A stretch of DNA of 64,000 nucleotides. It comes from an uncultured Saprospiraceae bacterium (GTDB lineage: Bacteria > Bacteroidota > Bacteroidia > Chitinophagales > Saprospiraceae). The stretch is taken from positions 124,001-188,000 of the forward strand of contig CALSOU010000002.1 of assembly GCA_943788055.1 (NCBI GenBank). The letters are read 5' to 3'. Position numbers and translations under genes: made by a program. Under the pieces are notes generated by a model, which worked only from the letters and a program-made list of their open reading frames with translations, was not told where the DNA came from and ran no database searches. Below are positions 35,200-38,017 of the stretch, piece after piece; the first letter of the stretch is position 1, and each line of letters begins with the position of its first letter.

Positions 35200-35215
35200 A
35201 TTGTGCCTAACGTTC
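35200..35215 (-). repeat. Direct-repeat copy GAACGTTAGGCACAAT
   Basis: Minus-strand 16-mer; second copy at 37394-37409 with one mismatch; contains GTTAGGC, matching the attC core consensus GTTRRRY. Confidence 0.6.
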
Positions 35216-35219
35216 TGGT

Positions 35220-35243
35220 TAAACTGCGTTTTAATGCAGTTTA
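35220..35243 (-). terminator. Stem-loop downstream of the esterase pair (terminator or part of a cassette-boundary element)
   Basis: TAAACTGC-N8-GCAGTTTA perfect 8-bp stem. Confidence 0.45.
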
Positions 35244-35260
35244 GGTTTTACTATGCACTT

Positions 35261-36394
35261 TTATTTTGTTTTTATCAACCCTATGGATTGATTTTCAATA
35301 TTCAAAATATAAACATTAGGAGCTAATGAAGACAAATCGATTGTATTAATTTGAGAATTCAATTTACCACTCTTTACTAATTCTCCAATAACATTGTATA
35401 TCGAAAAATCATTGGATTGTGCAGATTTTACTTCAATCGTAAGCACCTGATTAAAAGGATTTGGAAACACCTTATAATTGTCAGTCTGTCCATTATTTTC
35501 GTTGATAGATGTAGTTATACATCCAATTAATCCGTTGATGTCATAACGTGAAACAAATTGCCAAATCTCTATATTCGCATCAATCGTCATATTTCCAAAA
35601 CTTCCAGGCCAATCATGTCCTCCTCCTATCACTTTTAATTCCTCCACGTAGGCACAACCTGATGCAGTGGACCAAGTATATCGTTCAACACTTGGACTTA
35701 CAGTACTCATGGTAGCAGTTGTGTCACAATTGTTATGCGTTGCCCAATACATATGTGTTGCTGCTGCGGAGATATAATATTCTATACCGCCAAATACGAT
35801 TCCAATGTATGGAGAAACCAAGTCATCCGTACCAAGAATTGTAAGAACTCCAGTGGGATGCACCGGAGAGCAAAAACTATTTGGATTGGCTTGCATGGTT
35901 CTGGCTACTGGAGCTATAGCTGCAATTCTGTTATTGAGCTTACATCCAAGTTCAAAGGTCATATCTCCTCCTAAGGAATAGCCACAAGCATATATTCTGT
36001 TCTGGTCTATTTGATAATTACTAGCAATCGTATCTATCAATGAACTAAAAAAGGGCACATCATCAAAAGTACCTGGGACTTTAGGAATCCAGTTAAAAGA
36101 GTTTCCGTCACTTGGGTCAGGACGTGCTTGGGGATAAACTAGAATAATTTCAGCAGTATCGGCAATAGGTCTCATGTCGGAAGCTGCTTGCCAAGCGGAA
36201 TTTGTACCACCTCCTCCATGTAAATTAAATAGTAAAGGAAAATTTGTAGTTCCATCATAACTCGCAGGAACGTAAATACTATATTCTCTTGTTAAGCTGT
36301 TATGCTGTACGGTTTCGCTCATGTATCCTTGAGCGTAGCCTGCATTAATAAAAGCAGTGAATGCTATTAATGACAGAATTTTTTTTGTTGTCAT
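35261..36394 (-). CDS. Secreted PHB depolymerase/LpqC-family esterase with T9SS sorting domain
   Basis: REYSIYVPASYDGTTNFPLLFNLHGGGG; IYACGYSLGGDMTFELGC; C-terminal VFPNPFNQVLTIEVKSAQSNDFSIYNVIGELVKSGKL. Confidence 0.88.
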   Translation of the reverse strand: MTTKKILSLIAFTAFINAGYAQGYMSETVQHNSLTREYSIYVPASYDGTTNFPLLFNLHGGGGTNSAWQAASDMRPIADTAEIILVYPQARPDPSDGNSFNWIPKVPGTFDDVPFFSSLIDTIASNYQIDQNRIYACGYSLGGDMTFELGCKLNNRIAAIAPVARTMQANPNSFCSPVHPTGVLTILGTDDLVSPYIGIVFGGIEYYISAAATHMYWATHNNCDTTATMSTVSPSVERYTWSTASGCAYVEELKVIGGGHDWPGSFGNMTIDANIEIWQFVSRYDINGLIGCITTSINENNGQTDNYKVFPNPFNQVLTIEVKSAQSNDFSIYNVIGELVKSGKLNSQINTIDLSSLAPNVYILNIENQSIGLIKTK

Positions 36395-36462
36395 AATTAT
36401 CTTTTTTATGGTTTTACAATAATCTATACCATTTGAAGCACGGGTTACCCTACTTTTATTCT

Positions 36463-37350
36463 TTATCTCAATCCATTTATGTCATAACGTGATACAAAAT
36501 TCCAAACCAATTCAGAAGCATTTTGACCTTGAAAGGTTGAATTAAACCAAACGTGGTCTCCTCCGATATATTTGTAATGTTCAACGGAAACTAAGCTTTC
36601 TCCTTGGTCATATACATAATGTTCAATTGTCATTCCTCCGCTATTGTCGTCGGTTACAGTTGGGTTTGTAGTCGTGTTATTGAAATTCATCCAATGGTCC
36701 AATGTACTTTGCGCAGAGTTCCAGCCACTTCCACCATTATAGGGCAGAACACCATCAGAGGTTCCGTGAAGATGAACTACTGGCATTGGATGACTTGTTG
36801 GTCCAATACAATCTAACATAACACCTGAAACAGAGGCTACCGCAGCAATTAAATCACTTTTATAGTTCGCAAGTCCATATGCCATCATACCACCGTTTGA
36901 GTATCCAGCAGCATAAATTCTTTCCATATCAATGTTATATTGCGATGAAATCTCATTTATCATTAATTCAACAAAACCAAAATCATCAGCATCACTTTTA
37001 TTGTCTCCACCATTTGGACAAGCATTCCAATGAGGTGAACCATCCAAACAGCCACCTTGAGGATAGACTAAGATAAAAGTATCAGCTTCTGCCAATGAGC
37101 GCATATCTGCTTCTTGCATGTAATCACTTGCGCTACCACCAAACCCATGAAAATTAAACATTAAAGGAACAGCAGATGTCCCGTCATATGAGTTAGGTAT
37201 ATACAATACATACTCTCTATTGATACCGTCATACACTAAGGTCTGTGCATAAGTATTTGAATAGCAACTCTCCGAATTATTTTTATCATCTTTTTTACAG
37301 CTAGTCAGGGTTGTTAATAGAATGGCAAAAAATAAAATTGATTTTTTCAT
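36463..37350 (-). CDS. PHB depolymerase/LpqC-family esterase lipoprotein, paralogous to the adjacent gene
   Basis: Lipobox LTSCKKD; REYVLYIPNSYDGTSAVPLMFNFHGFGGSASDYMQEADMRSLAEADTFILVYPQG; IYAAGYSNGGMMAYGLA. Confidence 0.88.
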   Translation of the reverse strand: MKKSILFFAILLTTLTSCKKDDKNNSESCYSNTYAQTLVYDGINREYVLYIPNSYDGTSAVPLMFNFHGFGGSASDYMQEADMRSLAEADTFILVYPQGGCLDGSPHWNACPNGGDNKSDADDFGFVELMINEISSQYNIDMERIYAAGYSNGGMMAYGLANYKSDLIAAVASVSGVMLDCIGPTSHPMPVVHLHGTSDGVLPYNGGSGWNSAQSTLDHWMNFNNTTTNPTVTDDNSGGMTIEHYVYDQGESLVSVEHYKYIGGDHVWFNSTFQGQNASELVWNFVSRYDINGLR

Positions 37351-37393
37351 TATACTTTCTTTTTTTAGTATTTATCATGGTCTCTCCGTTTTA

Positions 37394-37409
37394 ATTGTGC
37401 ATAACGTTC
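37394..37409 (-). repeat. Direct-repeat copy GAACGTTATGCACAAT
   Basis: Minus-strand 16-mer, one mismatch to the copy at 35200-35215. Confidence 0.6.
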
Positions 37410-37755
37410 CGTTTAAAAGAAGTAGCGGTTTGAGATTACTGCCAAAACGATATTATTTATACCTATATTGTAAGCTGGCTTTTTTTCAATTCAGCTTGGT
37501 TTTCAGCATTGGCAAAGACATACTCTTTTGCGATTTTTGGTTTATGTGTTGGCTGTAGTGAATTGCAAATGTGTATGGCTTTAAGCGTTGGAAAATTTTA
37601 GCTCTTTTGGTTTTTAGAGTGTTAGAATTGAGCATTGGCAAAAATCGAAAGTGCTAAAATATGCGGCTGGAACTATGAAACGGTCTTGTATATGCGTAGA
37701 GCGACCGATAGGAAGCATTATCGCATATACGATGTTAGCAGACGTTTTTTACAAA
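37410..37755. repeat. Non-coding palindrome-rich boundary element
   Basis: Inverted repeat GTATATGCG...CGCATATAC near 37690-37731, internal AGCATTGGCAAA repeats at about 37505 and 37631, GTTAGC near 37735; no supportable ORF. Confidence 0.45.
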
Positions 37756-37771
37756 CTTTGAAGTAATAAAA

Positions 37772-38017
37772 TCACAATTTGATGATTTTAGTAGACCTGT
37801 TTCCATTATTCGATTCAATCGTAACTGTATATAATCCAGAAGCTAATTTTGATACGTCAACTAGTTCTTTTTTAGCTGTGAGTATCAACTGACCAGAATT
37901 ATCATAAATGCTGACTTTTCTTAAAACGCTGTTTGCGTCTAGTTTAATTTCTAAGACATTATTTACCGGATTAGGATACAAACTCAATGTGCCTTCAAAA
38001 TCTAATGTACGAATTGA
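37772..38017 (-). pseudogene. Orphan T9SS type A sorting domain (remnant of a secreted protein gene)
   Basis: *SIRTLDFEGTLSLYPNPVNNVLEIKLDANSVLRKVSIYDNSGQLILTAKKELVDVSKLASGLYTVTIESNNGNRSTKIIKL*; no upstream coding body or signal peptide. Confidence 0.75.

Follow-up and report, generated by a model that had tools for sequence, protein, structure and literature searches.

A pair of esterase genes in the window, as we call the whole 64-kb stretch of DNA analysed here, probably constitutes a two-gene cassette within an integron-like array of which only a decayed part, lacking an integrase, is left. We also think it reasonably probable that Bacteroidota possess a second, phylum-wide integron-like system, with a XerA-derived recombinase that lacks the IntI domain and a site class of its own, which standard attC/IntI searches miss and whose cassette gene pool has been largely overlooked. 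The case that this site family exists and behaves like the sites of integron cassettes is strong, as judged from sequence; to call the window a decayed cassette of the family is a fair conclusion, and a cassette origin of the locus is likely. The locus comprises the following features:

37775..38010, minus strand: putative T9SS sorting-tail fragment (..LSLYPNPVNNVLEIKL..GLYTVTIESNNGNRSTKIIKL and stop), upstream of E1, from reading the sequence
37675..37740, minus strand: attC-like site E1, TGCTAACATCGTATATGCG .. CGCATATACAAGACCGTTTCAT (covariance models R1 and R2)
37590..37665, minus strand: hairpin type B, between E1 and E2 (inverted repeat 37595-37615/37640-37660)
37480..37590, minus strand: hairpin type A, with GCCAACGC ends (query 134-222 matches, 77-88%, in relatives G010, G044, G067 and G097)
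37399..37473, minus strand: attC-like site E2, degenerate, GCTTACAATATAGGTATAAATAA .. TTTAAACGGAACGTTATGC (read by comparison with L058:9951-10082)
36463..37350, minus strand: esterase 1 (Esterase_PHB, Pfam PF10503, 1.5e-8), with a lipoprotein-type start
35261..36394, minus strand: esterase 2, a distant paralogue with a T9SS C-terminal tail (Por_Secre_tail, 2.3e-11; BD-FAE below cut-off)
35250..35258, minus strand: R'' arm of E3, GTGCATAGT (sequence)
35205..35256, minus strand: attC-like site E3, short form, GCATAGTAAAACCTAAACTGCATTAAAACGCAGTTTAACCAGAACGTTAGGC (R2, E 2.5e-4)
35211..37404, minus strand: cassette body inferred for a G|TT crossover like that of integrons (two GTT cores and start/R'' complementarity)

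E1 was recovered by both models in the window (R1, E 1.3e-5; R2, E 1.3e-7) and against the whole of its own genome (6e-4 and 5.9e-6, respectively), and pieces of it are 80-88% alike in the intergenic DNA of relatives. Scanned with R2, a covariance model built from 13 short sites, none of them out of the window, the 64-kb window gave E1 and E3 as the sole matches below E 2.9, while E2 fell under the R2 threshold and, with an R1 E value of 6.6, is insignificant alone. The original prediction that the esterase pair is bounded by attC-like sites is supported, with the correction that the upstream site at 37.4 kb, E2, is degenerate. Inspection by eye suggested one more site, a fourth, near 34.9 kb (AACGTTCTAGGGTAAATGC), which was dropped because R2 gave it no support. 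Searches of the window against Rfam and for tRNAs returned no match.

Part of that prediction was a 16-mer repeat, and the pair is indeed there: two minus-strand copies that differ at a single position and lie 2194 nt apart. As standalone evidence we rejected it, since it is within chance: at least two matches at three or fewer mismatches occurred in 27 of 100 shuffles of the 64-kb window. The 16-mers rise above chance through their location within two structured sites, both being the right ends of sites on the minus strand, where the core GTT runs into the beginning of the cassette that follows. The first joins the R' core of E2 to the start of the esterase cassette and the second joins the R' core of E3 to the start that follows; AACGTTAGGCACAATA is found again at 113.5 kb of contig C2. 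The GTT of E2 (37405-37403) begins the esterase cassette, whose start, CACAATTAAAACGGA, is common to it and to a locus at 50.8 kb of contig C1 of the same genome. That array also holds a sister copy of E3 (C1:50804-50858; 89% over 55 nt, E 1.7e-14), by which the R'' of E3 was identified as GTGCATAGT, with its core AAC mutated to AGT (alignment with C1:50797-50848). Over 7 nt (GTGCATA of GTGCATAgT) this R'' is complementary to GTTATGCAC, with which its own cassette, that of the esterases, begins. The stem-loop described just inside the 35.2-kb copy is present (35220-35230/35233-35243), and both esterase reading frames point the same way, as had been claimed.

The long boundary upstream of the esterases had been described as palindromic and as something other than a canonical attC, and both descriptions stand: the segment 37390-37765 folds better than 100 of 100 shuffles (z -3.0), with GTTAGC ending at 37739. 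It is, however, not one attC; it is made up of a pair of short sites and, lying in between, two unrelated hairpins. As a repeated unit the 401-nt boundary was rejected, since the whole is single copy in its genome, and only its pieces recur. Boundary pieces match intergenic DNA in 15 of 98 relatives, and also plasmids of Arenibacter, Flammeovirga and Persicobacter. An empty site was sought in genus mates and none was found; they lack an orthologue of the TonB receptor that adjoins the locus. Hairpins of type B lie between the cassettes of relatives (query 216-301 matched in G082 and G097), and those of type A, in relatives and at C1:3.9 kb of the same genome, come after the cassette gene's stop codon and ahead of the site. 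In many cassettes, hairpins with GCCAACGC ends and a conserved CTCTTTTG / CAAATGTG occupy this position between stop codon and recombination site (window 37480-37665; L184 1560-1660; L023, L024 and L026), and they are perhaps terminators or a separate small element. The sorting-tail fragment at 37775..38010 appears to be the remnant of a truncated gene.

Esterase 1 is 81% identical to its homologue in G029, 79% in G084, a member of another family, 69% in G024 and otherwise at most 49%, with no more than 45% in genus mates. Such identity across genus and family, set against its absence among genus mates, suggests that the gene was acquired by transfer. No significant site immediately adjoins the three close homologues (G029, G084 and G024), and the gene therefore need not have moved as a cassette; nor was an esterase 2 homologue found next to them. 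Esterase 2 is 40% identical to esterase 1.

The window is one of four places in its genome that together hold at least 11 sites. The further sites, found with the covariance models, are these:

Contig C1, 3.9, 50.8, 53.0 and 53.9 kb: sites of the family
Contig C2, 108.8, 110.0, 110.7, 112.5 and 113.5 kb: sites of the family

The own-genome sites adjoin McrBC, bestrophin, DoxX-like, GyrI/Cass2-like and porin genes, and display start/R'' pairs such as GTTGCCCAC/GTGGGCAAC and GTTAGGCAC/GTGCCTAAC. The GyrI-like product of one cassette (L162 5196-5630) also has a match to Cass2, an effector binding family associated with integrons. No integrase had been visible in the window, and searches of the whole genome and of three genus mates, two of them incomplete, likewise turned up no family recombinase. 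Because its own genome yielded none, the window copy is unlikely to be mobile now; that any copy recombines today is unproven.

The earlier suggestion of a different, non-canonical Bacteroidota exchange unit is supported, and related sites occur at other places of the genome as well as among many relatives. Across an alignment of 37 sites from several Bacteroidota families, AACA, CGTT, one T-A pair and one unpaired A are invariant, and changes on both sides occur in 12 of 13 predicted pairs. The observed covariation was reached in 0 of 500 shuffles. Pairing holds in 88% of cells for the inner helix and in only 45% for the outer R arm, as it should if the right flank is part of the following cassette. 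In 33 of the 37 sites a conserved A stands opposite C (an A.C mismatch, G.T on the bottom strand), and the bottom strand has the more stable fold in 31. The arms are of attC type (R''/R', L''/L'), with conserved structure, unconserved sequence, unequal spacers and invariant AAC/GTT; many sites measure about 124 nt from AAC to GTT, and a short form also exists. As only two of the 37 fit the canonical core RYYYAAC, and three GTTRRRY, the GCCTAAC match that had been taken as an integron inverse core is not diagnostic.

A unit cut at GTT and closed into a circle needs a start complementary to the R'' in its own 3' site. Across 45 consecutive pairs, start and own R'' agreed at 4.56 of 7 positions; the value was 2.6 for comparisons inside one site and 2.95 when pairs were drawn at random from the same locus. 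The test was repeated on plasmid pPP2 of Persicobacter psychrovividus, an independent set with no part in model building, where 35 of 52 matched at 7/9 or better as against 3 of 65 within sites. This complementarity, found in two independent sets as in integron cassettes, is a signature of integron-type excision and insertion.

Plasmid pPP2 carries 65 R1 sites in 100 kb, all 65 on one strand, as in a co-oriented cassette array, and the genes between them are mostly annotated as hypothetical. Several of its cassettes are duplicated, with the same protein accession in two places, and no family recombinase was found in the stretches read (L178/L179). The matched contigs of relative G097 are likewise arrays, in which one or a few genes and then a palindromic element follow each other repeatedly. 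R1 matched 57 of 99 relatives and 102 of 197 high-quality genomes spread across Bacteroidota, and none of 33 control genomes outside the phylum, 13 or more of them with a true IntI. On a plasmid of Chryseobacterium sp. SNU WT5 (L183 18753-20069), a group II intron reverse transcriptase sits inside a cassette array, reminiscent of the group IIC introns that target attC.

The arrays adjoin a tyrosine recombinase of 370-400 residues. A scan of bacterial genomes for this family gave 35 Bacteroidota loci, and R1, run on 80 recombinase loci, found 49 sites, all in Bacteroidota; 45 of these lie downstream of the recombinase gene and are co-oriented with it (22 of the 26 sites that had no part in training; p 9e-7). 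Recombinase and array share one direction in most loci, and plasmids of Chryseobacterium and Rufibacter have the recombinase with sites downstream. After the recombinase stop codon, a hairpin and then GTT[AG] follow in many of 28 loci (p 4e-5), with the cassettes beyond, a position like that of attI. The clade of L090 and L096, with which the G097 enzyme groups, has the layout of a standard integron, its sites being upstream and divergent. Where visible, the array is upstream and divergent throughout L090, L096 and L072, and the G097 contig ends at an attI-like sequence. Related recombinases also occur in gut Bacteroidales (L095 of Mediterranea sp. An20; plasmids of Parabacteroides and Bacteroides).

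The IntI-specific additional domain sits around patch III (PMC9668308). In the array enzymes measurable by motif, the GKG-HxxRH spacing that holds this domain is 64-66 residues, compared with 107-108 in 13 true IntI, and in a quick tree IntI forms a separate, fully supported clade. TIGR02249 (NCBIfam) matches to the array recombinases all lie below the cut-off and were rejected as proof of IntI, weak matches occurring in control genomes too. By spacing, sub-cut-off matches and separate clade the enzymes thus lack the IntI domain, and the system, which by its sequences behaves like an integron, is by this criterion not one in the strict sense. In the predicted structure (pLDDT 85.5), a small N-terminal bbabb domain precedes a core that most resembles IntI4 and XerA, the nearest solved structure being IntI4 bound to its hairpin (2a3v, E 2e-15). 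The N-terminal 60 residues (alignment A3, e.g. L090:2925-3104) bear the motif F.YD..LI...K....KWS....WY.P; the domain is weakly similar to HARP and DUF5710, but neither identity was accepted, the matches falling short of the threshold (E about 0.002 and 0.0005, respectively). The domain could help handle folded single strands.

Akin to integrons, these arrays consist of mostly single, co-oriented genes with structured 3' sites of conserved stem and variable sequence, with a GTT core, start/R'' complementarity, a recombinase beside the array, a putative attI-like site and a stabler bottom-strand fold. They differ in the recombinase, which has an extra N-terminal domain and no IntI additional domain, and in sites with AACA/CGTT in place of RYYYAAC/GTTRRRY, of about 124 nt or short form, with an A.C mismatch. 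XerA, XerC and XerD act on dif in chromosome dimer resolution. The array enzymes share with them a catalytic core without the IntI insertion (NCBI names NF040815, for XerA/XerC/XerD, 'site-specific tyrosine recombinase/integron integrase') and differ in sitting beside arrays and in carrying the bbabb domain. Most loci of the family have the arrangement of reverse integrons, in which recombinase and array run in the same direction, e.g. in Treponema denticola (PMC7691350). The window, with E1 and E3, and the other arrays of its genome resemble CALINs, clusters of at least two attC sites with no integrase nearby, by analogy only because the sites are of the Bacteroidota type. A published survey of integrons covered the same phylum with IntI and attC models, and the accessible part of it does not report the present system; nor did full-text literature, in a coverage that excludes preprints and most subscription papers, yield a description.

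That the window is a canonical IntI/attC cassette, callable by standard tools, is hardly credible: the IntI4 structure and the sub-cut-off TIGR02249 matches speak for it, but the short spacing, the separate IntI clade and the sites that miss RYYYAAC/GTTRRRY speak against. Very improbable, too, is the reading that ordinary intergenic hairpins, terminators or REP-like, flank the esterases by chance and that nothing moves. The sites are palindromic and follow stop codons, and the 16-mer repeat alone is chance; yet terminators would not make the GTTNNNNNN upstream of the genes complementary to the R'' of their own downstream site, would not keep AACA..CGTT invariant around covarying stems, and would not share one orientation beside one recombinase family.

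A further explanation accepts the array sites as real and takes the window for two unrelated remnants brought around chromosomal esterases by chance or later rearrangement, so that the pair never moved as a unit. The weakness of E2, the lack of a gene between E1 and E2, and close esterase 1 homologues that have neither flanking sites nor an esterase 2 homologue beside them all favour it. We nevertheless consider it unlikely, if worth keeping in mind, given that start and R'' are complementary over 7 nt, that E3 and the CACAATTAAAACGGA start motif recur in the C1 array, and that esterase 1 is patchy, at 79-81% across genus and family and absent at that level from genus mates.

In intact arrays of the family, the system could operate as follows. 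A tyrosine recombinase with an IntI/XerA-like core and a small N-terminal domain would act on hairpin sites of the form AACA, covarying stem, CGTT, cutting, by analogy with integrons, at G|TT. A gene with its 3' site would be excised as a circle, again as in integrons, and inserted at the attI-like hairpin beside the recombinase gene; a single strand, the bottom one, would presumably be used.

The window itself is a modest relic, and its value is as a lead to the site family. If the system is as proposed, cassette exchange would be routine, on plasmids as well as chromosomes, for half of a phylum that is among the largest in bacteria, although surveys found almost no integrons in Bacteroidota, and folded-site recombination would be possible without the IntI additional domain. 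The AACA..CGTT models let the cassette genes, now mostly 'hypothetical proteins', be listed and tested.
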